From a virus, in IMG/VR virus record IMGVR_UViG_3300037882_001257, positions 62,001 through 126,000 of that record: a stretch of DNA of 64,000 nt; one strand, 5' to 3'. Positions 9,474 to 62,184 of the stretch are shown one piece after another. The notes under the pieces were generated by a model. It was given only the letters and a program-made list of their open reading frames with translations. It did no database searches and was not told the DNA's origin. Each line of letters begins with the position of its first letter. The stretch's first letter is position 1. A program made the translations under genes and the position numbers.

Positions 9474-9912
9474 ATCTAGATTTCATCCTGTTAATTGTTT
9501 CGTAAGGGACATTATGAGTATTGCGCCTAAAACACTCGTCTACATCCCAGGCCCACGGCGTTTCCGATTGTCTATATTCAACAGAATACCCGTATGTCGC
9601 AGCTAAAGAGATATAGGGAGCCATTTCCTTTAGCGCGATATTAGTATTGTCGATAATCACAAGCGAGGTTCCGTAACCTAGCCCCTCTTTCATAGACTGC
9701 TCTGCTTGAGCTTTATTCCAGGCGTGAGCCTCTCCAATCCGCTTGAGGTTAAAGTCGTAATAGCCGTCTGGTCTTACCCAGTAATTATCCGTAGAGCAAA
9801 CATAGGTAGCTGTAGTTGGACACGTAACGAGAGCCTCACGAATGAGTTCTTGAACTCTCGTGGACTTTCCACTACCGGGAAGCCCTCTCATTAATACAAG
9901 TTTTTTACTCAT
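9463..9912 (-). CDS. Polynucleotide-kinase-like P-loop protein
   Basis: The Walker A motif GLPGSGKST at residues 10-18, the STDNYW segment and IIDNTNI follow the pattern of the T4 Pnkp 5'-kinase domain and N4BP2-like kinases. The size (149 residues) fits a kinase domain without the 3'-phosphatase part. It overlaps the Rnl1-type ligase gene by 8 bases, matching the T4 pairing of end-healing and end-sealing enzymes. Confidence 0.8.
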   Translation of the reverse strand: MSKKLVLMRGLPGSGKSTRVQELIREALVTCPTTATYVCSTDNYWVRPDGYYDFNLKRIGEAHAWNKAQAEQSMKEGLGYGTSLVIIDNTNIALKEMAPYISLAATYGYSVEYRQSETPWAWDVDECFRRNTHNVPYETINRMKSRYET

Positions 9913-11017
9913 CTATTTCCTGTCCTCTAGGTTGAACCAGTCTCCAAATAGTTTCGGAGTAGTCCTTGTTATCTAACATGTTAAATATGATGCTCTTATA
10001 GTCGTAATCAACTAAACGATTAGCTATATCTTTGCGGCTACCGCCCTTGGAAAGGACTTCATTCAGCTTTGCCTTAGCATCATCTTCGATGCTCTTATAA
10101 CGAAGCTTAATCTTATCAGCTATATCTGTCACATACTGATAGAACTCGTCTGGAACCTTGTCTAACCACTGAGATAAGTCAGCATTTGCACGAAGCTGCT
10201 CCCAAACCCGTCTAGGAGTTACACCTGTCATTATCTTGTGTAATCGGCAGTATTCAGCGAACTTATATTTCATGCGGAAACCATTGTCGAACACTAGGAC
10301 GTAGCCCTCTTCGTTTTCGACAGGCTCTACATATTGTAGTTGGTCTAAATACTGGACGTGGGGCAATTGCTTTCTAACGCACTCCCAACCAAGTCTACTA
10401 ACTAACCGGAAATCATCCCAGTTGTCTAGGCCGGTTTCGTTATCAATTACCGCTAACAAGGTCAACTCTTTCAGGCCCTTATAGTCAAGGACAATGCGGT
10501 TCTCTGGATAGATGATTTCCACTAAATAGGTGTGGCCTATTTTCAGGTATCTCAACATATCCGCGTACTTTGTCTGTAATAGGCGGTTACCCACTACTGC
10601 TTGGTCAGATTCAAACGAACCCCTAGAAGCAAGTTCCCACGTTTCGCTCTGAGGGTTAAAGTAGATTACGCCTAAGCTACCATCCATTTTAGGATAGGCG
10701 GTAAAGCGCAGCCGTGGAATCTCCGTGAACTTCATACCAAACAGGTGGTGAAGATTATTACGGTAAGTACGTAGCTCATCCACGTTGAAAAACTTCGGAA
10801 ACGGTCTACCCACAATGCGGTGCATGTAGTCTAAAACTAGACCGCGACACATGATGGTGGTTTTGTTCCAATAGCGTTCGATTTGAGTATTGGTTGTATA
10901 GTTGTAAATCCACAAATCGTACTTCGGGTGTTTACGCTTGGATACCCAACCGTTTTCAACGTGACCTTCGACAAGGGCATAAGCCTTGTCACTCAGTTTT
11001 GGTAGTTCCACTAACAT
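9905..11017 (-). CDS. RNA ligase, T4 Rnl1 family
   Basis: The adenylation motif PKMDGS lies near residue 110, with the lysine as nucleophile. Downstream are EIIYPENRIVLDY (motif III region), EEGYVLVF (motif IV) and MKYKFAEY (motif V lysines). About 370 residues matches T4 Rnl1. I chose ATG 11017, which overlaps the upstream stop; a TTG 15 bases earlier is possible. It likely seals cleaved tRNA anticodon loops with the adjacent kinase. Confidence 0.85.
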   Translation of the reverse strand: MLVELPKLSDKAYALVEGHVENGWVSKRKHPKYDLWIYNYTTNTQIERYWNKTTIMCRGLVLDYMHRIVGRPFPKFFNVDELRTYRNNLHHLFGMKFTEIPRLRFTAYPKMDGSLGVIYFNPQSETWELASRGSFESDQAVVGNRLLQTKYADMLRYLKIGHTYLVEIIYPENRIVLDYKGLKELTLLAVIDNETGLDNWDDFRLVSRLGWECVRKQLPHVQYLDQLQYVEPVENEEGYVLVFDNGFRMKYKFAEYCRLHKIMTGVTPRRVWEQLRANADLSQWLDKVPDEFYQYVTDIADKIKLRYKSIEDDAKAKLNEVLSKGGSRKDIANRLVDYDYKSIIFNMLDNKDYSETIWRLVQPRGQEIDE

Positions 11018-11538
11018 AGCTTCGCTAACCAAGAGTTAGCCTCTTCTTGTGTTAAGTCATTCAAATCCTTAGCGGGACCAGGGACGGAGTACGCCTCAAA
11101 CCCCATTTTCTTTAGTTTAGCCCCCGCAGGGTCGTTATCTGCTATGACTATTGACCTTCTGTAACCGTTGATGGACTTAAAGTAGCCCAAGAGGGCTTTG
11201 CTGGGGGTTGCAGTCAAGGCAGCGACGGCGGAATATCCCGCGTTTACGGCCCTCACCGCGTCCCACACGCCCTCTGTTATAAAGATTACGTCTGGTGAGT
11301 CGTAGAAGTGTTCTAAGCCCCACAACATGCAATAGGCGTCGTTCGCCTTGTTAATATACCGACCATGTTCGTCGTTGCTACGTAATTTTCCAACGGCCCA
11401 ATTGTAGCGGGAATAGCCTATGAGCTTACCGTCTAAGGTCCAGAGGGGAAACCTTACGATTTCCTCCTCATAACTAACCCACGCTCTTATGCGAGGGGTC
11501 AGACCTCTCTGTAATAGGTGTTCCTGAAACTGGGTCAT
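11011..11538 (-). CDS. TOPRIM-domain primase-like protein
   Basis: VIFITEGVWDAVRAVNAGY is the TOPRIM glutamate strand and SIVIADNDPAGAK gives the D-x-D, as in DnaG-type and phage primases. The 175-residue protein lacks the zinc-binding N-terminus and any helicase domain. It could be a separate primase subunit or a nuclease-like TOPRIM protein. Confidence 0.75.
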   Translation of the reverse strand: MTQFQEHLLQRGLTPRIRAWVSYEEEIVRFPLWTLDGKLIGYSRYNWAVGKLRSNDEHGRYINKANDAYCMLWGLEHFYDSPDVIFITEGVWDAVRAVNAGYSAVAALTATPSKALLGYFKSINGYRRSIVIADNDPAGAKLKKMGFEAYSVPGPAKDLNDLTQEEANSWLAKLC

Positions 11539-12429: not shown

Positions 12430-12452
12430 AAAAAAGCCCGCAATGCGGGCTT
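12430..12452 (-). terminator. Rho-independent terminator
   Basis: An AAGCCCGC/GCGGGCTT hairpin with a 3-base loop is followed by a run of U on the minus strand. It ends the exported-protein operon just after the 12472 stop. Confidence 0.9.
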
Positions 12453-12471: not shown

Positions 12472-12810
12472 TTATTCAGCTTCCTTGTACAACTCTTTCA
12501 TCAGCGGAACACTAGAGGTCTTTGCTGCTGCTACAATAGCATTAACAAACTTATCTCCGTGCTGGCGATATTCTTTGTAGCTCATACTTCTACGTACATG
12601 TACGCGAAGGGCAAGCTTTTGCCACATATTAAGGTTCTTAGCTGTCTTAACAGCAGCTTCCGGGGTCTTTCTGCAAGCCTGAAGCACAGTAATAAGCTCA
12701 ACAATAATAGGGGCCAGAGTGAGAATAATGGAAGGGTCAAACGCCTGACCTTCCTTAATTACACCCATCTTTTTTGCTACTTCTACAGCAGCCTTTTCTG
12801 AAGCTTTCAT
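12472..12810 (-). CDS. Hypothetical helical protein
   Basis: The 112-residue protein is basic and helical, with a hydrophobic central stretch (SIILTLAPIIVELITVL) that could be a membrane or amphipathic helix. It is the last gene of the exported-protein operon, directly before a terminator. Confidence 0.6.
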   Translation of the reverse strand: MKASEKAAVEVAKKMGVIKEGQAFDPSIILTLAPIIVELITVLQACRKTPEAAVKTAKNLNMWQKLALRVHVRRSMSYKEYRQHGDKFVNAIVAAAKTSSVPLMKELYKEAE

Positions 12811-12821
12811 GGTTTACAACC

Positions 12822-13268
12822 TTATCTAAAGAGGCGGTCGATTAGAAGGGCACGGCCAACATTACCTTGTTGCAATTCACGAGCAACTGCCGCTTCTAGG
12901 AAAATATCACGCGCATTGGCACCAACGCCAAGTCTAGCACGCACTAGGCGAGAACCGCGAACCTGAACAAACTGGCGAACAGCAAAGCGCTGTCTTATCG
13001 CACGACCAAACGCATCTCTAAGTGGTTGACGAGAAGCCTTTTCGCACACGCGACCGTACTGGTCAACATAAACCTCAACAACCTTCACTCTACGAACCTT
13101 TTGGCGTTGCTTTACAACAACCTTACGAACCTCTTGCTCTAGTTGATAGTCGTCATAACGAACTTCAACACGGGCAGGGGCAGCGTAGTCCGTAGCCAAC
13201 ACAGGGGCGCTCATAGCAATAGCTAGGATACCCGCAACAATACCGCTCAACACTTTATTTACTCTCAT
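12822..13268 (-). CDS. Secreted basic protein
   Basis: The preferred ATG at 13268 gives a Sec signal peptide (about 20 hydrophobic residues ending APVLA). The mature part (about 120 residues) is unusually rich in R and V, with repeated Q-R-V stretches and a single C. It is probably periplasmic or extracellular and may bind a polyanion. Family unknown. It overlaps the cytochrome gene. Confidence 0.65.
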   Translation of the reverse strand: MRVNKVLSGIVAGILAIAMSAPVLATDYAAPARVEVRYDDYQLEQEVRKVVVKQRQKVRRVKVVEVYVDQYGRVCEKASRQPLRDAFGRAIRQRFAVRQFVQVRGSRLVRARLGVGANARDIFLEAAVARELQQGNVGRALLIDRLFR

Positions 13269-13929
13269 TTTCATCAACCTTTCTTACCCAAGCTTCAATT
13301 AGCTTGGATTCTGTATCTGACATCTTTTTGTTTGACTTTGGCATCCTACCACTTTCTACTGCGTCACTGATTCTCCACCAGTCCGCTATCGTAAATGGCT
13401 TGTCGTTTCGAGTCATTGAGGCAAAGTTCCAAAACTTTGTCTTTTTCTCGGTAGCGTCGTGACAACTTGCACAATTATATTTTTCTAACAGGGCTGAGAC
13501 ATCAACAGGAACTTCAATAGAAGTAGTCTCTGGTTCCTCTGGCTCAGGTTCCGGCTCGTCATCAGGTGGAAGGGTTGTTACCGGAGCCTTGCGAAGTTCT
13601 TCTGCAATCTTACTGGCAAAATAATCCAACTTTTGACCAACCCTCTCGGCAATCTTTTCAGCTAGAGCCTCTTCGTCAATGCCTCTCTCTAGCTTGTAGT
13701 AATAATCGGCGTGGAAATCAGTAACGGGAACAGCAATAGCTTTTACAATTACTTCTTTCACTATGTTTTGATACTGGAAATCAGCTACAACTTTTCTATT
13801 AGCGTAGATATGACTGTGCTTCTCTAGACTTCTACGCACAGCGCAGTCAGTGTTATAGTTAGTTGCCATGCCGACTGTTGAAAAACACAGGGCGATAGCC
13901 ATTGTTAAAAAGAGTGTTAGTTTGCCCAT
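13255..13929 (-). CDS. Exported c-type cytochrome domain protein
   Basis: A Sec signal peptide covers residues 1-22. A helical region (80-115) and an acidic P/E-rich linker (120-138) lead to a C-terminal cytochrome c domain. CASCH at residues 153-157 is the covalent heme site, and GRMP (Met 196) is a plausible axial ligand. This domain layout resembles planctomycete-type cytochrome c modules. It should be matured by the host cytochrome c system in the periplasm. It overlaps the genes on both sides. Confidence 0.8.
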   Translation of the reverse strand: MGKLTLFLTMAIALCFSTVGMATNYNTDCAVRRSLEKHSHIYANRKVVADFQYQNIVKEVIVKAIAVPVTDFHADYYYKLERGIDEEALAEKIAERVGQKLDYFASKIAEELRKAPVTTLPPDDEPEPEPEEPETTSIEVPVDVSALLEKYNCASCHDATEKKTKFWNFASMTRNDKPFTIADWWRISDAVESGRMPKSNKKMSDTESKLIEAWVRKVDENESK

Positions 13930-15632
13930 ATTGTTTCCAGGATGTGTTTTGGTACAAGAACAGCTTTTAGGTGATTTAACGAACCGTAGAATACACCGTT
14001 TTCGGTAGTTCCCTCACTATAAATATACACCGTGGAACCGCGAGGGATTACAATAGACCCCGAAACTACGTAGTCTTGCGTTGTTTTAGCCTGATATGAT
14101 TGAAATTTCATTCCGTTATACCAAGTCGCAGTAAACCACACTTTTTGACGATGTTGCTGCACTTTTTCCTTAACAACAACTTCTTTAATTTTCACCAACT
14201 TAGAACGATAGATTAGTAGCATAGATTCTACAAACACACTACTATCACCAATCTCCCAGGCGTCTCTTGGAACGGCAAAACCCCTGTGTAAACCCGTCAA
14301 AGTAGCATTAGCAGAACCTTTAGTATGATATTGATATGCATCAATAGTCACACCGGATGTTCTTGCGGCCTGCTCTAGGTCCAGCGGTGCATCGTACCAA
14401 TTCAAAAACTTATGTAGGTTAGCCACTAACTCATTAGGTTCCCAGCCAGTATCGCGCTTTACTGCATCCGTATAAAGAATGCGATAGAATTCAACCTTCT
14501 TATTAAAATTACGCAGGTAGAAAGATGCGTGTCTATCCAGCTCTTTCTTGTCTTCAAAATTTAGACTTATTTTCTTGCCTAGAAGTTCTGAAAGCCTATT
14601 TGGCGCTGTGTTTAATCCGGTGGCGTGGCACGACATACAACTGACAATCATACGCACTCTAACATCGTCAGACTGACCAGAAGTATCAACAACTACTGTC
14701 GGGTCTCCGAAGTTTACAGCTTGTTCATTGGCGGCTTTACCATTGCCGAAAGCGGCCAACCAGTAGGCTTGCCACTGTACTCCATTTGAAGCTATAGCCT
14801 CAGATGCGTCTCTATCAGGGCGGGATAGTACGGGGTCTAGATTATCAATGTATCTACGAAGTCCGTTCTTATTGTCATTTGTTTCTGCGTAATATCCCAG
14901 GTCTGTGCCGGTTACGGCAATCTGTCTCTCATTGCGGGAAACCGCTGATTGGCCCCTAGGAATGATGGTTCCAATTGCCTGACCAAAAATGTTTACTCTC
15001 TTATCATTGACTCCCCATATAGCTCGGAACTCTGCTAGGGTTTTTGGAGGACCGCCCAGGTTAGAATAGAGCAAGATTGGCCCGATTGGCTCTAGGCCAA
15101 CATCTTCGGGCTTCATATAGTCTAGAATGTTAGCAATAAACCAGCTTCCACTGACTATAGAATTCCCACCGATAAGACGCAGTTCAGCCGCGTCTACATT
15201 GTTAATCCAAGGCTCTCTGAAATACGGGTCTTGAAGGGCGATAATTTCCCAGGCTTCTCTGTTCCAGTTATAGTCTCTGATGTTCCCGTAGAACAATGTC
15301 TTAGACCCAGGGACTAACCGCGCTACAGCCGGTCTATTTCCAGCGCTGTGGCTTAGAATAGAAGCGGTTAAAAGCCGCTCGCCACTATCGAGTAACTCTG
15401 GCGGAACGTCGTACAGACTCCAAAAGACAATGTCTTTTCTATCATCCTCAAACACAAAGTATTTTAGGAAATGAAGAGCATGGAAATGTTCGGAGTTAGG
15501 CGAGACGGTTTCTCCTTCAACAGTCCTAGGAACAGGTACATGAATAACATTAGATTGATATTCTTCCCCGTCAGCCCCAGTTCCTAAGCACAGAGACATT
15601 ATCATCGCTAATAATATCAACAGCTTTTTCAT
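13917..15632 (-). CDS. Large exported protein with one c-type heme motif
   Basis: This 571-residue protein has a Sec signal peptide (1-22, ending GADG). A long N-terminal region has no motif I can name. CMSCH at residues 332-336 is a heme-attachment site. A C-terminal region (about 490-560) looks like an SH3-type beta domain. The family is not recognised, but single-heme large cytochromes of this kind occur in environmental bacteria. It lies between the metalloprotease gene and the small cytochrome gene. Confidence 0.75.
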   Translation of the reverse strand: MKKLLILLAMIMSLCLGTGADGEEYQSNVIHVPVPRTVEGETVSPNSEHFHALHFLKYFVFEDDRKDIVFWSLYDVPPELLDSGERLLTASILSHSAGNRPAVARLVPGSKTLFYGNIRDYNWNREAWEIIALQDPYFREPWINNVDAAELRLIGGNSIVSGSWFIANILDYMKPEDVGLEPIGPILLYSNLGGPPKTLAEFRAIWGVNDKRVNIFGQAIGTIIPRGQSAVSRNERQIAVTGTDLGYYAETNDNKNGLRRYIDNLDPVLSRPDRDASEAIASNGVQWQAYWLAAFGNGKAANEQAVNFGDPTVVVDTSGQSDDVRVRMIVSCMSCHATGLNTAPNRLSELLGKKISLNFEDKKELDRHASFYLRNFNKKVEFYRILYTDAVKRDTGWEPNELVANLHKFLNWYDAPLDLEQAARTSGVTIDAYQYHTKGSANATLTGLHRGFAVPRDAWEIGDSSVFVESMLLIYRSKLVKIKEVVVKEKVQQHRQKVWFTATWYNGMKFQSYQAKTTQDYVVSGSIVIPRGSTVYIYSEGTTENGVFYGSLNHLKAVLVPKHILETIWAN

Positions 15633-15640
15633 AGTAGGAT

Positions 15641-16807
15641 TTAACCTTCTTTCACATCAAATACCAAGTTGTCGCCGGTAACAGTGAATGTAACTGTTTT
15701 GGTCCTCGGTTCTGGTGGAGGAGGCGGTGGTGGTTCAGAACCAATAGTAATTACAAATTCATTGGAGAATCCAGAGAAGATGTTATCTCCAAATGCTCTC
15801 ACCTTATATGAGTAGGTGCCGTCAGCTACATTACTATCAGAAGCTACTTTAATCCCTCTTTTTACCTGCCCAAACTTTACTCCGTTGCGCCAAACTTCAA
15901 ATCCGTTTTCTCCAGAGGAATTATCCTTCCAACGAAGTATGGCTTTTCCATCTTCGTGAGTGACTGTTAAGTTTGTAGGTGCTGTTAACACTTTTGGGTC
16001 TCCTGGTGGTGGAGGCGGGTCAACGGGGCCGGGGCCTGTAGCATTGCCATATATTGCACGAATGCGAGTAACGTCATCGTTATTTTGAGGTTTGACAATG
16101 TTCGGGCTGTAAAAAGGGGCCATTAGGGCGCTAGACTCGTTAGAGTGTTCAAGACCCAACAAGTGGCCTATTTCGTGGCAGGCAACATTACGTAGATAAA
16201 TACCACGGTTGGCACCCACCTTAGTCCATGTTTCATCCTCATCAAATCGCATCAAGAGTTGCCCCTTGAAGTTTTGTTGGGGTGGTAGAAAGGCGTAAGC
16301 TAGAGTGTTACCAGGACCGTCAAAATCATCGCGTGCGCCTCGCCCCGTTGAAATTACGAGATTAGCCCCGGATGTACTATCTACCTTAGAAAAGCGCAAG
16401 CTGCAAATGTCTTGCCAACTGTCGAAGGCTTCTTTTATTATACTGTCCCACTCGCCCTGTGGCAAGTCAGAGTCGCGTTTTTGTATGAAGTACGTCAAAT
16501 CCTTTACACCCCACGCCCTGACGCTGGCGCGAGCCTCAAGCATACCCCTGTCGGACACACCACATCGAGGCCAGCTTTTCATGGCATTGAGAGTGTTTGG
16601 GCCAAGCTCACCGTCAACTTTTAGAGCGCCAGTAATTTTCTGGAGCTTAGTCAGAGCTTCTACCACATCTTCAACGGTGATAGTGCCTTCTTTTGTAAGG
16701 TATCCATAGTGTTTCAGCCAGTCTATAGCTTCCAACACTTGGTCTGCGGTAGTTGCCCACTGGCGAAACATTTCGACCAGTTTTAGAATTGTCTCAATAC
16801 GGCCCAT
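15641..16807 (-). CDS. Matrix-metalloproteinase-like protease with cysteine switch and FnIII domain
   Basis: The 388 residues follow the MMP order. A peptidoglycan-binding-like propeptide (about 48-77) ends in PRCGVSD (80-86), the cysteine-switch motif. The catalytic domain has HEIGHLLGLEH (211-221, HExxHxxGxxH) and a Met-turn ALMAPFY. A P-rich linker (264-268) then joins an FnIII domain (275-355), a second proline run and a short C-terminal beta segment. No signal peptide is visible, so export would need another route or lysis. It should be a latent zinc protease activated by removal of the propeptide. Confidence 0.9.
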   Translation of the reverse strand: MGRIETILKLVEMFRQWATTADQVLEAIDWLKHYGYLTKEGTITVEDVVEALTKLQKITGALKVDGELGPNTLNAMKSWPRCGVSDRGMLEARASVRAWGVKDLTYFIQKRDSDLPQGEWDSIIKEAFDSWQDICSLRFSKVDSTSGANLVISTGRGARDDFDGPGNTLAYAFLPPQQNFKGQLLMRFDEDETWTKVGANRGIYLRNVACHEIGHLLGLEHSNESSALMAPFYSPNIVKPQNNDDVTRIRAIYGNATGPGPVDPPPPPGDPKVLTAPTNLTVTHEDGKAILRWKDNSSGENGFEVWRNGVKFGQVKRGIKVASDSNVADGTYSYKVRAFGDNIFSGFSNEFVITIGSEPPPPPPPEPRTKTVTFTVTGDNLVFDVKEG

Positions 16808-16852
16808 TTAATTACTCCAAGGGGTGTCACCCATATTATACACTTACGCAGC

Positions 16853-16993
16853 CTAAAAAGTTAGGTACTTTGGCACGTAAATCGGTTTTCCGTTACAACG
16901 GACTAGATACCAGTCAAAACCCACGGCTAACACCGGATAATCCTGCTCTAGCTTTAAAGGTCCGTAAACAAAGCCAATTCTAATCGTGTTCAT
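16853..16993 (-). CDS. Very small hypothetical protein
   Basis: A 46-residue frame starts at ATG 16993, overlapping the upstream TGA (ATGA). It has beta-strand character. The coupling supports it as real. It ends before the metalloprotease gene. Confidence 0.5.
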   Translation of the reverse strand: MNTIRIGFVYGPLKLEQDYPVLAVGFDWYLVRCNGKPIYVPKYLTF

Positions 16994-17484
16994 TTTGTGT
17001 CCTTAAAACTTGGGTCAAGTAGAATATCTGTGAACTCTTTTATCTCTCTATAAACCTTGCTTTGTACCGTCATGTTAAACTTCTTAGTAGCCTTGTCTTT
17101 AGTCCAGTCTCTTAAGTTGTTACCGAACTCGCTACTACGGGCTGACCAGTCACAAACCATTTCCGCTACAAAAAGTCGCGGAACCTCATGTATACTGCCC
17201 CAGTATTCCGGGTGGTGAGGGTTTGACAGTATATGCTGTTGAATAGCTAATTCTGTCTCTGCCTTTCTATCGCCGGTCATTAGGTCGCCATGTAAATACA
17301 ACCATTCTATTCCGTGGAATTTACTATTGTCATGTATATGACCATTAGCAATTAGGTTGTGCCCAAGTTCTGCTTCTCCTTTTTCTATTAGCCGCTCACC
17401 TAACAAGGTACAGTTCTGTCGAACGTGTTCTATGTGCCTCAATAGGGCGTCTCTGCGCTTATTCCATAAATCAGCTTCGCTCAT
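16990..17484 (-). CDS. DUF5662-like (HD-fold-like) protein
   Basis: Motifs HIHDNSKF, HHPEYW and EMVCDWSARS occur in the order seen in the DUF5662 family of phage and bacterial proteins, which resembles HD-domain hydrolases. The residues H, D and HH could bind a metal. Substrate unknown. Confidence 0.7.
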   Translation of the reverse strand: MSEADLWNKRRDALLRHIEHVRQNCTLLGERLIEKGEAELGHNLIANGHIHDNSKFHGIEWLYLHGDLMTGDRKAETELAIQQHILSNPHHPEYWGSIHEVPRLFVAEMVCDWSARSSEFGNNLRDWTKDKATKKFNMTVQSKVYREIKEFTDILLDPSFKDTK

Positions 17485-44351: not shown

Positions 44352-44964
44352 ATGTGTAATCGGCTACAGTTTGACAAAGTTGTTTATATCCCCACTTTTT
44401 CAGCAGGTCTAGGGCAGCATACTGCTCAATGCCGTAACGAATCGCGTGCTTCTTTTGTTCCAGGTGGATAATAGGTGAATACATAGAGATAAGCTCTTGT
44501 GCCCCCTTAAGCACGAAATACTCATACCCCTCAACATCTAGCTTAATATAGTCTACGTCTTGAAGGCCATAAGGCTCTATTAAAGAATCAAGGGTTACTG
44601 TAGCACACTGAATGCCGGTCTCGCCTATGTGTGTAGCGCCACTATTGTTCTCTTCCACGTCGAGATACAAAGTGCCCTGCTTGTCCGACAGGGCAAACGC
44701 CGAACTATAAAAGTTGTAAGCGGTCACGTTCTTGACTAAGCACTCCATGTGTGTTGGAGCTGGTTCAAAACCCCATACTGAATCAAAGCGCTTGCATAAA
44801 AACTTAGACCATGTTCCAACGTGTGCCCCAATATCAATTGCAGTACGAAAATTTTTCACGTACTTTAAGCTATTTTCACGATGCTTTTCTTGATAGTGAT
44901 TTAGGTCTTGTTCAGCAAAATGAACTTCATTATCAGGAAGCCACCACCCATTAACTAATTTCAT
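44338..44964 (-). CDS. FkbM-family methyltransferase
   Basis: TAIDIGAHVGTWSKFL is motif I; YIKLDVEGYEYFVLKGA is the FkbM signature. 208 residues. Probably O-methylates a sugar of the glycan made by this island. Confidence 0.9.
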   Translation of the reverse strand: MKLVNGWWLPDNEVHFAEQDLNHYQEKHRENSLKYVKNFRTAIDIGAHVGTWSKFLCKRFDSVWGFEPAPTHMECLVKNVTAYNFYSSAFALSDKQGTLYLDVEENNSGATHIGETGIQCATVTLDSLIEPYGLQDVDYIKLDVEGYEYFVLKGAQELISMYSPIIHLEQKKHAIRYGIEQYAALDLLKKWGYKQLCQTVADYTYGKK

Positions 44965-45946
44965 CTAACCACCTCTGATTTTCTAATGTCCACTTGATAG
45001 TCTTTTCTAGAGACTCCTCGAACGGAACTGGATATTTAAAACCTAACGTACATAGTTTTGTGTCCTTCAGCGCATATCTAAGGTCGTGCCCAGGTCTATT
45101 TGAGTGAAAGTCAACGAGTTCGTATTCGAGTGGTTTACCTATAACATCGGCCACGAACTGAGCTAACTCTAGATTAGAAACCTCTTTCTGACCCAGGAGA
45201 TTATACCTCTCGCCAGCAGTTGAATGACTAACCAGGAATAGGCACGCTGCCGCTACGTTTCGCGCATGAACATAAAAGCGTGTCCCAGCCCTCTTATTGC
45301 CGGGATACGAGTGTATGAATATCTTTTCACCCTTGAGTACCTTATTAATACACATTGGCAGGAACTTCTCAGGGTGTTGACGTTCCCCAATAACATTCAT
45401 GCAGTTAGACACTACTATAGGCAACCGGTATGTAACATGATAGGCATAGCAAAGCTGGTCGGCTGCGCTCTTTGTTGCTGCGTAAGGATTTCTTGGCTTG
45501 TGGCGGTCCCACTCGGCATATTCCACACCTTCGTCTGCACACCCATATACTTCGTCAGTCGAAAAATTCTGGAAGTAGTCTAGACAGTCAACGCTCCTAG
45601 CGTAGTTTAGTAGATTAGCAGTTCCCACTACATTGTCTTGAATATAGCCCAAAGGGTCTTGTATCGAGCGGTCCACATGAGACGACGCCGCTAGATGAAA
45701 CACATAGTTGGGGCGGTTTAGGGCGGCGGCCACCTGGGAATTTATCTCGGCCTTTAGGTCGTGCCATACAAAGTTGAAGCGCTTCTTATAGGATGGGCTT
45801 ATATCTAGGATTTCCGACAGGCGATTTAGATTGCCAGAAGTATCCAGACGGTCTAAACAAACGATATTCCAATCGGTATTCTTTAGGACATGTTCTATAA
45901 GGTGACTACCTATGAATCCTGCCCCTCCTGTTATTAACACTCTCAT
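44951..45946 (-). CDS. NAD-dependent sugar epimerase/dehydratase (RmlB-like SDR)
   Basis: VLITGGAGFIGSHLIEHV is the NAD-binding site, and NPYAATKSAADQL has the YxxxK catalytic pair. FSTDEVYG is the dehydratase-type STDEVYG motif. 331 residues. It would convert a nucleotide-sugar. It is a paralogue of the C-terminal half of the 47492 gene. Confidence 0.9.
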   Translation of the reverse strand: MRVLITGGAGFIGSHLIEHVLKNTDWNIVCLDRLDTSGNLNRLSEILDISPSYKKRFNFVWHDLKAEINSQVAAALNRPNYVFHLAASSHVDRSIQDPLGYIQDNVVGTANLLNYARSVDCLDYFQNFSTDEVYGCADEGVEYAEWDRHKPRNPYAATKSAADQLCYAYHVTYRLPIVVSNCMNVIGERQHPEKFLPMCINKVLKGEKIFIHSYPGNKRAGTRFYVHARNVAAACLFLVSHSTAGERYNLLGQKEVSNLELAQFVADVIGKPLEYELVDFHSNRPGHDLRYALKDTKLCTLGFKYPVPFEESLEKTIKWTLENQRWLDEIS

Positions 45947-46651
45947 TTATAGCGCTCCGTACTTAGTCACAATGCCTTTATGCCTATCGAACATTCTCTC
46001 TCTAGCCTGTTCATTTTTTAAATGAAGCTTAGCCCTACAGTGGATAGCAGATATGTGCCCTCCCCAGCGATAAAACTCACAACATTCAGGTTTACTTTTT
46101 GGTTCGCCAATATCAAAAATCTCATATTTAGCTATCGGCCTATATTTTTCATATATGTTGCACCCTGTATCATGCCACAAGTTACTATTGTCAATCTTAG
46201 GAGGGATAAAATCAAACGACTTAATATCGACCTTGTTAGTATTAACCATCATACAAAAAACAACTGGAAAATCCATTATGGGCTTTATGTTCTTACCAGG
46301 AAAGTACGAAGCGCCAAAAAAATCTAATTGCTTATCTTTCATATGGTGAAGAATGCCGTCTACATTAGCCAGTATAAAAAAATCAGGGTCTAAAAATAAT
46401 ACGTACTCAGTATCAATGTATGGCAAGGTTTGATTCATACCTATTGCATGATGGTGGCTATGCTTGTTGACTTTATTGCCGGTTTCTGGCGGCATTTTCA
46501 CCCCAGGCAGCTTGACAAACCTATCATCTTTCAGCGTATCGCTATTATCAACCACCAACCATTTAAAGTTGGAGCATCTTTTGCTCATTATATTATAGTT
46601 TAAATGAAGATATGCTTCACTGTGATAAGAAACAGTTGCTATAGTCAACAT
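45947..46651 (-). CDS. Glycosyltransferase (GT-A type)
   Basis: TIATVSYHSEAYL opens the GT2-like fold; YVLFLDPDFFI contains a DxD metal site. C-terminal GGHISAIHCRAKLHL is probably acceptor-binding. 234 residues. Confidence 0.75.
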   Translation of the reverse strand: MLTIATVSYHSEAYLHLNYNIMSKRCSNFKWLVVDNSDTLKDDRFVKLPGVKMPPETGNKVNKHSHHHAIGMNQTLPYIDTEYVLFLDPDFFILANVDGILHHMKDKQLDFFGASYFPGKNIKPIMDFPVVFCMMVNTNKVDIKSFDFIPPKIDNSNLWHDTGCNIYEKYRPIAKYEIFDIGEPKSKPECCEFYRWGGHISAIHCRAKLHLKNEQARERMFDRHKGIVTKYGAL

Positions 46652-47495
46652 CTTCTATCTTTCTTATGTGTGGTTTTAGATGGTTCCACGGCAGCCCATC
46701 TGCCATCTCTTGCACAGACCACTGAGTATATGCTAAATCATTAAAAAGAGGTGTGCGGTCAAAGTAGTTAAACCCTTCACCTAGGCTGGATATGTCGTGT
46801 GGGCAAAGCTCGAAGGCCATGCCGCCAGGGGAAAATACAGCGGTGGGTATTCCATGTCTAATAAACTCTATCAGGGCATTTGAATTCCACGCTATACAAG
46901 AAGTGCTATTTTTAAGAGCATCTTCTATTTTGGTATTTTTCACTTGCCGACCGAGATTAGTGTTTGGGTGGTTCAAATACACGTACCCCTGAGTTAATCT
47001 CGGAATTATATCAGTGTGGAACCACTGCTCTATGTTAAAATTCTGAGAAGTCACACCATTAGGGTTTTGGCCTATTAGCACCACATTTTTAATTGACGCT
47101 TCTCTCCACGGATGTATAGGTAAAGACAGTTTCAAAAATCTATCACTGGGCATACCACTATTGTAATACTTGCCGTAATTTTTGATACAGTCAAAACCAA
47201 TCTGATAGTAATTCTTCTCTAGCTCAAATTTATCAAAGCGCATACATCCAGCATCAATATAGATAATGCGTTTTTTAGCCCTGCGAGCCTCGTGGTGGAT
47301 AGCCAAACGAAATGCAGCAGTTGGAGACGGATAGCATATGCAAATCAGAACATCTTGCTCTTGGATATATGTAATATCTTGAGCGCTTATTAAATGCCGT
47401 ACTTCATCCCCTTGTGCTATTACCCCGTGGCTAAATGCCTCTATGATACGTTGAGAGTCTGCGCCCCCCTTAGTATGACAGATACCAACTTTCAT
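46617..47495 (-). CDS. Capsule-type glycosyltransferase (KpsC/KpsS-like)
   Basis: The second half has SCIAWNSNALIEFIRHGIPTAVFSPGG. This matches the NS-x-x-x-EAL-x-x-GxPV pattern of the donor-binding site in KpsS/KpsC-type Kdo transferases. Together with the KdsB-like enzyme it suggests Kdo-type sugars. 292 residues. Confidence 0.65.
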   Translation of the reverse strand: MKVGICHTKGGADSQRIIEAFSHGVIAQGDEVRHLISAQDITYIQEQDVLICICYPSPTAAFRLAIHHEARRAKKRIIYIDAGCMRFDKFELEKNYYQIGFDCIKNYGKYYNSGMPSDRFLKLSLPIHPWREASIKNVVLIGQNPNGVTSQNFNIEQWFHTDIIPRLTQGYVYLNHPNTNLGRQVKNTKIEDALKNSTSCIAWNSNALIEFIRHGIPTAVFSPGGMAFELCPHDISSLGEGFNYFDRTPLFNDLAYTQWSVQEMADGLPWNHLKPHIRKIEDVDYSNCFLSQ

Positions 47496-49228
47496 TTTTG
47501 GAAAATCTTCCTGTAGTATTCTACAGTTTTTTGTAAATCTTGCTCAAAAGACGACGAGTATTGAAATCCCATAGCTGATAATTTTGTGTCTACCATGCTA
47601 TATCTTAGGTCGTGCCCCGGTCGGCTACTATGAAAATCGACCATCTTACATTTAAATGGTAAGTCTAAACACGCTGCGATTAGATTTACCAATTCAAGAT
47701 TGGTGATTTCTCTTTCCTCTAGAACATTGTACTTTTCATGCTTAACACCGTTGCTCATTAAGAAGGTTAAAGCCTCAGCGAGCCTGCCAGCATAGGTATA
47801 GTGACGAGAACCAGAAACAGTTTTTGTCTTATCAGAATGAACTAAGACTGGTTCCCCTAGGAGAATTTTTTTAACTGTATCAGGAACAAATTTTTCAATC
47901 CTTTGTCTTTCTCCAAAAATGTTCATAGTATGAACTATAGAAATATTCATATTGTATGTAGTTGAATATGCTAAACAAATTTCTTCGGCGGCGGCTTTTG
48001 AAGCGGCATATGGATTAGGAGAGTTGTAGCGGTCCCACTCCTTGTAATCGTAACCATCGTAAGCAGGGCCAAATACCTCAGCGGTTGACACATGAATCAA
48101 CTTTGCCTGTTCTTGGTTTCTGCGACAATATTCAAGAAGATGGGTTATTCCTAAAACATTACTACGTATAGCATCTAACGGGCGTCGTATAGATTCGTTA
48201 ACATTGGTAAATGCAGCTAAATTAATAACACAATCTATCTTACCAATACTAACTCTCTCTGCACTAGTAAACTTGTGGCTTAAATCCTTAACTAGTATCT
48301 TTACTCTAGAATTATTAATCGCGCCTATTTCATTAAGGTTAGACGTATTTTCTTTGACTATCAAACAAAGATTGTGAGATGTGTTTTTCAATAAATATTC
48401 AACTAAATGAGTACCAACAAGGCCGTTAGCCCCAGTGATTAAAATAGATTTCGGATGATGTGGGACGACATTGTACTTAACAATGTGAGAGCCTTTTTCG
48501 TGTTCTATAAACTTACCGAATGGGCCATCGCAAATCACATGCCCACCACTCCTTACAATATGTCTCTTTGACACTAAATCAATGTCATTATATCTATTTT
48601 TTTGCAAAAAGTGTGAAAAAATGAAACTATCATCCCACCTATCATAGTTACGAAAAGCACCAGATTCAAAACACTCAAAAACATCCTGTAAGAATCTATT
48701 AGCCGATGGCTTGCTCATATCAAAACACACGACGCCGGCCTCGACGCCCATTCCGTTGTTACGGCGATACGTCCCTGTATGATGAGCAATAGACTTGCCT
48801 TTCATAATGAGTTTGACTTGGGTGGTGGTCAACCTCTTAGTGAAATAACAATCGCAATCTAGTAGAATTACATAACCCTTGGGGTTTACCGATGTTATAC
48901 ACTGTTGAAGAGTGGCTACCTTACGAAACCAGCGCGCGGCCTGCCTTCTGTATTTATCAAATTTATTACCATTAGTATATGAATATACAGCCGTACCACC
49001 GTATTCCACAGGAATAATATCTGCGTTATTCTTGCACCAGTCTTGAAACCACTTGTATGACAATATATCTGAGACCGCTGCAAAATCATATGTTTCTTCT
49101 ATTGGAGAGGTGAGATTCTCTCCCCCTATGAAAATTTCACCGTCTACATTAAACTCACCAAAAGAGTCTAGCAGTCTTTTACCGGTTGCTTCATACAGCT
49201 TTTGGTTGAAAGTGGTAACAAACAACAT
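47492..49228 (-). CDS. Glycosyltransferase-SDR epimerase fusion
   Basis: Residues 1-260 look like a glycosyltransferase (YVILLDCDCYF as DxD, AHHTGTYRRNNGMGVEAGVVCFD). Residues 262-578 are an SDR nucleotide-sugar enzyme (ILITGANGLVGTHLVEYL, HVSTAEVFG, NPYAASKAAAEE). The C-terminal half resembles the 44951 protein. The fusion joins sugar modification and transfer in one chain. Confidence 0.85.
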   Translation of the reverse strand: MLFVTTFNQKLYEATGKRLLDSFGEFNVDGEIFIGGENLTSPIEETYDFAAVSDILSYKWFQDWCKNNADIIPVEYGGTAVYSYTNGNKFDKYRRQAARWFRKVATLQQCITSVNPKGYVILLDCDCYFTKRLTTTQVKLIMKGKSIAHHTGTYRRNNGMGVEAGVVCFDMSKPSANRFLQDVFECFESGAFRNYDRWDDSFIFSHFLQKNRYNDIDLVSKRHIVRSGGHVICDGPFGKFIEHEKGSHIVKYNVVPHHPKSILITGANGLVGTHLVEYLLKNTSHNLCLIVKENTSNLNEIGAINNSRVKILVKDLSHKFTSAERVSIGKIDCVINLAAFTNVNESIRRPLDAIRSNVLGITHLLEYCRRNQEQAKLIHVSTAEVFGPAYDGYDYKEWDRYNSPNPYAASKAAAEEICLAYSTTYNMNISIVHTMNIFGERQRIEKFVPDTVKKILLGEPVLVHSDKTKTVSGSRHYTYAGRLAEALTFLMSNGVKHEKYNVLEEREITNLELVNLIAACLDLPFKCKMVDFHSSRPGHDLRYSMVDTKLSAMGFQYSSSFEQDLQKTVEYYRKIFQK

Positions 49229-49984: not shown

Positions 49985-49986
49985 AG

Positions 49987-50333
49987 TGGAGATGGGCATA
50001 TTGAAATGCCGTCCTAATTGTTATCCGCGACAGCTTCTACATACTTAGGTCGCTTATTTTAAGCGGGCGACCTCGCTGATATGTCTCTCCATAAGTCTCC
50101 CGCACTTAATTTAGGCAACAAGTGCAGCTTCGATTGCGTTCTCGGTTACTGCGTAGGTGTAACCAACCTTGTCGGCATTGAAAGCCCCGACATAGCTTTG
50201 CGCCAAGGCGCGGGTGCGGCTTAGTAGACCGCTTACTTCGTTCTCATTTGCATTTGAACTGTTTTGGCTTTTACGTGGCTCCGCACGGTATGCGACTATT
50301 GTTTCAAATAATCAGTCGAAACCTGTCACCCCC
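49987..50333 (-). ncRNA. ssrA: tmRNA (ssrA) with unusually long putative tag frame
   Basis: The 347-base RNA starts GGGGGTGACAGGTTTCGACT and ends in CATCTCC-A, which pairs with the 5' end as a tRNA-like acceptor; the T arm is GGCAT/ATGCC with loop TTCAAT. A resume codon GCA at 50251 starts ANENEVSG..., and the frame runs 46 codons to TAA at 50111, ending AALVA. Both ends look like tmRNA tags (ANDEN...ALAA), but usual tags have 8-35 residues. A pseudoknot (AAAGC/GCTTT with GTCGG/CCGAC) lies inside the frame. Confidence 0.85.
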
Positions 50334-61972: not shown

Positions 61973-62184
61973 CGAATCTCCATATATAAGCTATGAGGTC
62001 CGCTCACAACTTGGTTATCGCTGTATACCTCAAGTATACCTCTATTAAAGTCTACCGCAATAGCATCCACAAGGTCTCCCCTGGAAAGCAAACCAATAGG
62101 CACTTTCAGTGTGCAGTTGTAGTATTGATTGAATCCGTACTCAACCTCATCCCAGGTCTCCCAATCAAACAGTTGACGTTCCAT
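61969..62184 (-). CDS. Hypothetical small protein
   Basis: ATG 62184 overlaps the upstream TAA (TAATG). 71 residues of mixed strands. No motif. Confidence 0.6.
   Translation of the reverse strand: MERQLFDWETWDEVEYGFNQYYNCTLKVPIGLLSRGDLVDAIAVDFNRGILEVYSDNQVVSGPHSLYMEIR

Follow-up and report, generated by a model that had tools for sequence, protein, structure and literature searches.

The zymogens of animal matrix metalloproteinases (MMP-1, -3, -9 and -10; MEROPS M10A) are built from a prodomain, a PRCGxxD motif, a zinc site HExxHxxGxxH and a Met-turn, in the same order as in the phage protease described here. Animal MMPs carry a hemopexin domain, and karilysin of Tannerella has a short propeptide with an Asp switch. 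As described in the main text on mtz-tim of Listeria, this metzincin pair is of phage origin and raises the sensitivity to phage lysis; the term 'cysteine switch' is absent from that text (PMC8235301). A study from 2025 on the transfer of MMP genes (PMC12587646) does not use the word 'phage' in its main text. In the open-access literature, searched by title and start of the abstract, we found no description of a phage cysteine-switch MMP or of the gene cassette reported below. Phage matrixin-like proteins are already in databases, since our fold search lists an uncharacterised Caudovirales protein (A0A6J5RTD2) and a zinc protease of a Lactobacillus phage (A0A4Y5FGF2), together with insect-virus MMPs.

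We analysed a stretch of 64 000 nucleotides (the window), positions 62001–126000 of a 126,482-base IMG/VR virus record. The original prediction, made from this sequence, was that it encodes an MMP-type zinc protease with a cysteine switch, carried by a phage. Judged by its gene content the source record is indeed a tailed phage, as it encodes a 2726-aa tape measure protein, DNA polymerase, RNR, RIIA, RIIB, phage-type RNA ligases and a clamp loader. The nearest relatives of the RNA ligase at 9905–11032 are from Streptomyces phages of about 130 kb (36% identity). Within 4602–41413 and 49986–50333 the window also has 34 tRNA genes (ARAGORN; 25 by the Rfam cut-off) and a tmRNA with the tag AGDLWRDISARSPA (ARAGORN; Rfam agrees). 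Two nucleotide-sugar epimerase genes lie at 44951–49228, and the product of one is extended at its N-terminus by about 260 unassigned residues.

RESULTS

An MMP-type zymogen by sequence and predicted fold

The protease gene and its parts are as follows.

15641..16807, minus strand: MMP-zymogen-like zinc protease, 388 aa, operon gene 1 (Pfam, phmmer, AF2 model)
16580..16744, minus strand: prodomain, aa 22–76 (PG_binding_1 match; helices 2–13, 21–33, 45–59 and 70–78 in the model)
16550..16570, minus strand: putative cysteine switch PRCGVSD, aa 80–86, with Cys82 (phmmer register, alignment)
16145..16177, minus strand: zinc site HEIGHLLGLEH, aa 211–221 (sequence motif, alignment)
16121..16123, minus strand: Met-turn methionine Met229, in ALMAPFY (Met229 invariant in alignment A4)
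15743..15976, minus strand: FnIII-like region, aa 278–355 (model strands, fold match)
15644..15703, minus strand: short C-terminal tail beyond a Pro-rich linker (weakly matches the tails of phage relatives)

The gene starts with ATG, which has GGAG 7 bases upstream and an in-frame stop immediately 5' of it. Pfam assigned aa 99–254 to Peptidase_M10 (E = 1.8e-37; 129.1 bits, far above the cut-off of 24) and aa 22–76 to PG_binding_1 (E = 1.9e-5). The top PDB match by phmmer was proMMP-1 (1su3; E = 1.4e-35, span 46–278), and its register put PRCGVSD on PRCGVPD and HEIGHLLGLEH on HELGHSLGLSH. The predicted order of propeptide, PRCGVSD, HExxHxxGxxH and Met-turn is thus borne out.

We then compared an AF2 model of the protease (mean pLDDT 86.9; built from 23 aligned rows, hand-chosen) with PDB structures. 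The 14 best rows were all MMP chains (Z 23.6–25.6), and their alignment takes in the prodomain, running from model residue 18–26 to 253–260. Latent MMP-1, -2, -3, -9 and -10 superposed with Z about 25, while structures of MMP catalytic domains scored lower (Z about 21–22). Over MMP structures as a whole the Z range was 21–26, so that the model has the M10 fold, as the prediction of an MMP-type protease required. We conclude that the ORF encodes a matrixin (MMP-type) zymogen, as read from its sequence and modelled fold. In this fold, which is that of latent zymogens, Cys82 may sit on the catalytic zinc.

The FnIII domain named in the original prediction found partial support. Residues 278–355 of the model form a run of strands, and the model matches viral FnIII proteins by fold, named tail proteins among them; Pfam fn3, on the other hand, gave no match in the protease at E <= 0.1. 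The same FnIII-like region is present in the alignment of the relatives from contigs L008 and L009. A profile of the C-terminal tail finds the window protease at E = 0.0058. We considered the tail as a C-terminal tag common to other phage proteins and rejected this, as only M10 proteins passed inclusion in the stretches scanned; one further match, at E = 0.092, was below threshold.

An upstream Cys is kept in most phage relatives

Cys82 is invariant across the 18 full-length rows chosen for alignment A2. An upstream Cys was found in 34 of 37 phage clusters, a count that takes in loose matches among short forms, where the register is uncertain; those lacking it are one L033 gene, L051 and L054. 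The clusters derive from 51 viral M10 genes, which gave 39 clusters at 90% identity and 37 after two were dropped: L046 (a contig of 7.6 kb, which shares an open fork of the tree with Frankia and Herbidospora) and L053 (of bacterial appearance by eye, and in no tree). L035 was taken as a copy of L027, and L041, L042 and L191 are among the 37 clusters but in no tree. Outside the count are L055 (2461–2643) and L056 (10001–10183), in which the matrixin motif lies inside a long ORF that is tape-measure-like by eye.

Of the 37 phage clusters, 21 have a second switch Cys (C-x-C), which takes the form RCGCPD in 12 of them. None of the 13 bacterial switch-bearing rows has this pair, all 13 having a single switch Cys. 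The contrast is no test on independent samples, as the rows are kin by descent. The switch of the window protease has one Cys only. The latency mechanism of the original prediction is supported in part, by a Cys at the right place in the sequence, the retention of an upstream Cys in the phage clusters and the latent-zymogen fold; the Cys–zinc contact itself is a putative one.

Two N-terminal layouts

The phage enzymes have two layouts. In one, to which the window protease belongs, the prodomain is kept and there is no sign of an export signal. In the other, short M10 proteins without a prodomain have Arg-Arg near the N-terminus (10 of 10 rows looked at), which reads by eye as Tat-like export. 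Eight of eight rows of the short Arg-Arg forms have a Cys 8–21 residues ahead of the Trp with which the catalytic domain begins, and RCGC is kept in the short forms of L012 and L015.

We measured N-terminal hydropathy in both layouts, with the start codon chosen by hand for L047 and four long ORFs. The Arg-Arg forms gave 1.12–2.49. The range in 21 prodomain or minimal-switch forms was 0.07–1.82, which overlaps, and export of the Arg-Arg forms therefore rests on the motif as read by eye. With a value of 0.78 and a stop directly before its ATG, the window protease gives no hint of a signal sequence; nine further phage proteins, none of them known to be exported, bracket this value with 0.12–1.54.

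Two contigs have M10 genes side by side. In L015 (7857–8429 and 8991–9629) these are a minimal form, which has a CGC switch but no export signal, and an Arg-Arg form. In L033 (9149–11617) they lie in tandem, and the first differs in its N-terminal part and lacks the switch Cys.

A rare phage family on its own branch

As a single query, the window protease found no relatives in INPHARED or IMG/VR; these were found by profile only. About 50 IMG/VR contigs carry them, near-copies included. The profile scan gave 49 loci and a phage-built profile gave 45, on nearly all the same contigs, with near-copies and at least two bacterial-looking contigs among the loci. Since the phage-built profile added one new contig, the M10 phage family looks near saturated for such scans. 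A tblastn search of 50,697 phage records with the M10 proteins of the window, L014, L037 and L054 gave no match at E <= 0.01. That the protease is not a usual phage enzyme therefore holds for named phages, but with relatives at 49 and 45 IMG/VR loci it is a member of a rare phage family and not a lone capture.

Tree 1, built from the catalytic domains of 60 rows, placed 34 of 35 viral rows on one side of a branch with 100/100 support and a length of 1.13 changes per site, L046 being the sole viral row outside. A second tree (tree 2) omitted eight rows, including L046, and added human MMP-1, MMP-9 and karilysin. It split 31 phage from 24 cellular rows at 100/100 and in 100% of 200 bootstrap trees, and this split is clean because the eight rows were left out. 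The only animal rows, human MMP-1 and MMP-9, fell in the cellular group, across the 100/100 branch from the phages. The cellular rows were hand-picked from one pattern scan and one plasmid search (38 bacterial loci listed and 25 in tree 1, from 80 fetched plus plasmid hits), and closer bacterial relatives may thus exist. On these sequences, nearly all the sampled viral enzymes form a branch apart from the bacterial enzymes, karilysin and human MMPs sampled. One bacterial locus, on a Streptomyces globosus plasmid (L007, 1476–3807), has a cysteine-switch matrixin adjoining a serpin gene.

The protease gene heads an operon with two haem-type genes

Downstream of the protease gene lie four more genes, and all four operon junctions are overlapping or at most 11 bases apart. 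This operon with its two haem-type proteins had escaped the original prediction.

16831..16843, minus strand: GTGTATAATATGG box ahead of the operon, a possible but weak promoter (sequence match)
13917..15632, minus strand: CxxCH protein of family A3, 571 aa, operon gene 2, export-like N-terminus (alignment, hydropathy)
14625..14639, minus strand: CMSCH, haem-attachment-type motif of the A3 protein (Cys332, Cys335 and His336 invariant in A3)
13255..13929, minus strand: small cytochrome-c-like protein, 224 aa, operon gene 3, export-like N-terminus (weak Pfam, hydropathy)
13459..13473, minus strand: CASCH, haem-attachment-type motif of the 224-aa protein (motif)
12822..13277, minus strand: operon gene 4, 151 aa, hydrophobic N-terminus (ORF, hydropathy)
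12472..12810, minus strand: operon gene 5, 112 aa (ORF)
12434..12452, minus strand: terminator-like hairpin with a T run, 3' of gene 5 (6 such sites in the region, 5.1 expected)

At the upstream box we found no sigma-70-type pair. The TATAATAT box was tried as a recurrent late promoter and set aside as weak: it had 29 matches where 19 were expected, and a single one was exact. A DUF5662 gene (16990–17484) sits immediately upstream of the operon, and its kin lie upstream of the M10 gene in L008 (59% identity) and L009 (53% identity).

Genes 2, 3 and 4 have strongly hydrophobic N-termini (2.94, 2.42 and 2.62 by the hydropathy measure). The 224-aa protein matched Haem_bd and Cytochrome_CBB3 weakly, below the Pfam cut-offs, and has the CxxCH motif and a hydrophobic N-terminus. 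None of the A3 proteins scanned, the window's included, fell into a Pfam family. The best sequence match of the window A3 protein had E = 0.2, and its model (pLDDT 67.8) had no PDB structural match at E <= 0.001.

The cassette recurs in other phages

We searched for the cassette by a six-frame profile search of 52 stretches. Fifteen of them have an A3 gene, and exactly these fifteen also have a gene of the small cytochrome-like family, never more than 165 bases downstream of A3. In 14 of these 15 the pair lies beside an M10 gene, which makes 13 distinct cassettes with L035 as the copy of L027 (window, L008, L009, L020, L026, L027, L028, L029, L039, L048, L051, L054 and L191). The M10 gene comes first in 11 cassettes and last in L020 and L029. 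Exactly one CxxCH was present in each of the 14 A3 and 14 cytochrome-like proteins looked at. A haem-type pair with no M10 gene within about 6 kb lies in a 595-kb phage genome (LR756511.1; L195, 5665–8928).

The partners were not nearby in 37 of 51 M10-bearing stretches, and L051 and L054 have the partners and lack the switch Cys; neither half of the cassette thus needs the other. At the level of whole records, an A3 match was present in 15 of 31, being weaker and far from the M10 gene in the records of L010, L011 and L017. Among bacterial relatives, a planctomycete-cytochrome domain is fused to A3 in 5 of 6 tested, above the Pfam cut-off, an arrangement that speaks for joint action of the two phage haem-type genes. 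The small phage cytochrome-like proteins match this domain below its cut-off. The recurrence of the cassette in unlike viruses suggests an undescribed virus toolkit.

The cytochrome type had raised the idea of a Planctomycete host, which found little support, as A3 matched few of the 246 Planctomycete genomes searched (6 at E <= 0.001). In the Nannocystis phylum it matched 5 of 140 genomes (E <= 1e-10); both counts are lower bounds, only some candidates having been scored in the larger genomes. Across 294 genomes of the Planctomycete phylum M10 scored 130.6 bits at best, for the catalytic part only.

Some relatives adjoin baseplate genes

In L014-type contigs the M10 gene lies at most 20 bases after a baseplate-J gene or slightly overlaps it, which suggests late expression there. 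The identity of this neighbour was established on one representative, L014 (Baseplate_J, 3.2e-13; phage baseplate wedge family, 2.4e-22). Its family adjoins M10 in ten contigs, near-copies among them, and the wider block is found in eleven. In L026–L028 the whole three-gene cassette lies inside the baseplate block, while in the window a long distance separates the operon from the tape measure gene. PHROGs gave no match for six proteins near M10 in L011.

DISCUSSION

The fold, the prodomain, the switch Cys, the missing sign of an export signal and the partner genes were obtained by computation, and from them we infer the steps of a possible mechanism. We give about an even chance to a protease that is made late, stays latent in the cytosol and, after reaching the outside, attacks protein of the host envelope or extracellular protein. 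The Arg-Arg N-termini of the short forms, Tat-like by eye, suggest a destination outside the cell, and the baseplate-J neighbourhood suggests late expression. In the host cytosol, Cys82 would bind the catalytic zinc and hold the enzyme harmless. Opening of the cell, or exit on the virion, would break the Cys–zinc bond through cleavage of the prodomain or oxidation of the thiol. The active protease might then cut host envelope or extracellular proteins and so help the phage to leave, or to get through, a surface rich in protein. The two haem-type proteins would be sent to the periplasm and take part in this step. The link of the protease to lysis is one that we infer; among the proteins scanned there was no endolysin or holin.

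The baseplate neighbourhood raises a different possibility, that of a virion enzyme on the tail or baseplate that digests host surface protein at entry and is attached there by its FnIII region and tail. Pointing this way are the ten contigs in which the M10 gene adjoins or overlaps a baseplate-J gene, and the named tail proteins among the fold-matched viral FnIII proteins. The window gene, however, is in the haem-type operon and not in the neighbourhood of the tape measure gene, the M10 versions adjoining baseplate genes are without FnIII, and a latent protease would need an activator borne by the virion. We regard this possibility as doubtful, if still worth serious consideration. The PG_binding_1 match and the missing signal sequence would also suit an endolysin-like envelope protease whose prodomain mainly binds peptidoglycan and whose Cys is a relic. 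But PG_binding_1 also covers MMP prodomains, and the Cys outlives the prodomain, both as RCGC in the short L012 and L015 proteins and as the upstream Cys of all eight short Arg-Arg forms, so we find such an enzyme unlikely.

A protease without signal sequence could also stay inside and cut host proteins in the cytosol as part of host takeover. The reducing cytosol favours latency and the partner proteins have export-like N-termini, both of which speak against this, and we think it very improbable. Apart from where it acts, the late-made latent protease might be gated by redox, with the zymogen shut in the cytosol and opened by oxidation after lysis or export, and the haem-type proteins serving as oxidant or electron carrier. 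The C-x-C pair of many phages could close into a disulphide; the window switch has one Cys, and oxidation there would have to act on Cys82 itself. We hold redox gating to be a long shot. If true, phages would possess a protease weapon that times itself, different in kind from known endolysins or spanins.

The phage MMP branch, together with a recurrent haem-type pair in unlike phages, points to an undescribed host-surface function. The presence of a putative latency device in phages, apart from the sampled cellular enzymes, bears on the origin of the MMP zymogen.

Set beside known systems, the window protease has 37–43% identity to animal MMP zymogens over the aligned zymogen. It differs from them in showing no sign of a signal sequence, in lying on the other side of the 100/100 branch and in having an FnIII-like region where animal MMPs have the hemopexin domain. 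The bacterial cysteine-switch matrixins of a Paenibacillus sonchi plasmid (L005), a Chlorobiaceae MAG (L058) and Geodermatophilus (L063) share the prodomain and PRCGxPD, and L005 and L063, like the window protease, have no obvious signal sequence by eye. They are nevertheless across the 100/100 branch from the phage enzymes, and bacterial switch rows have a single Cys (13/13). Tannerella karilysin (2xs4, 4r3v) has the MMP catalytic fold in common with the window protease but no Cys switch. The MMPs of insect viruses (granulovirus, ascovirus, iridovirus, entomopoxvirus and nudivirus) are viral M10 proteases too and match by fold; these, however, are animal viruses, and identity is 12–27% for the named rows among the 50 matches listed.

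Listeria mtz-tim, which we set beside the protease by its description, resembles the window case as a phage-linked metzincin with a second protein, affecting lysis. It differs in that, as the main text has it, the metzincin is secreted and its partner is a TIMP-like lipoprotein (PMC8235301). By analogy, and within what that text describes, mtz-tim may serve as a precedent for a metzincin that aids phage exit (PMC8235301).
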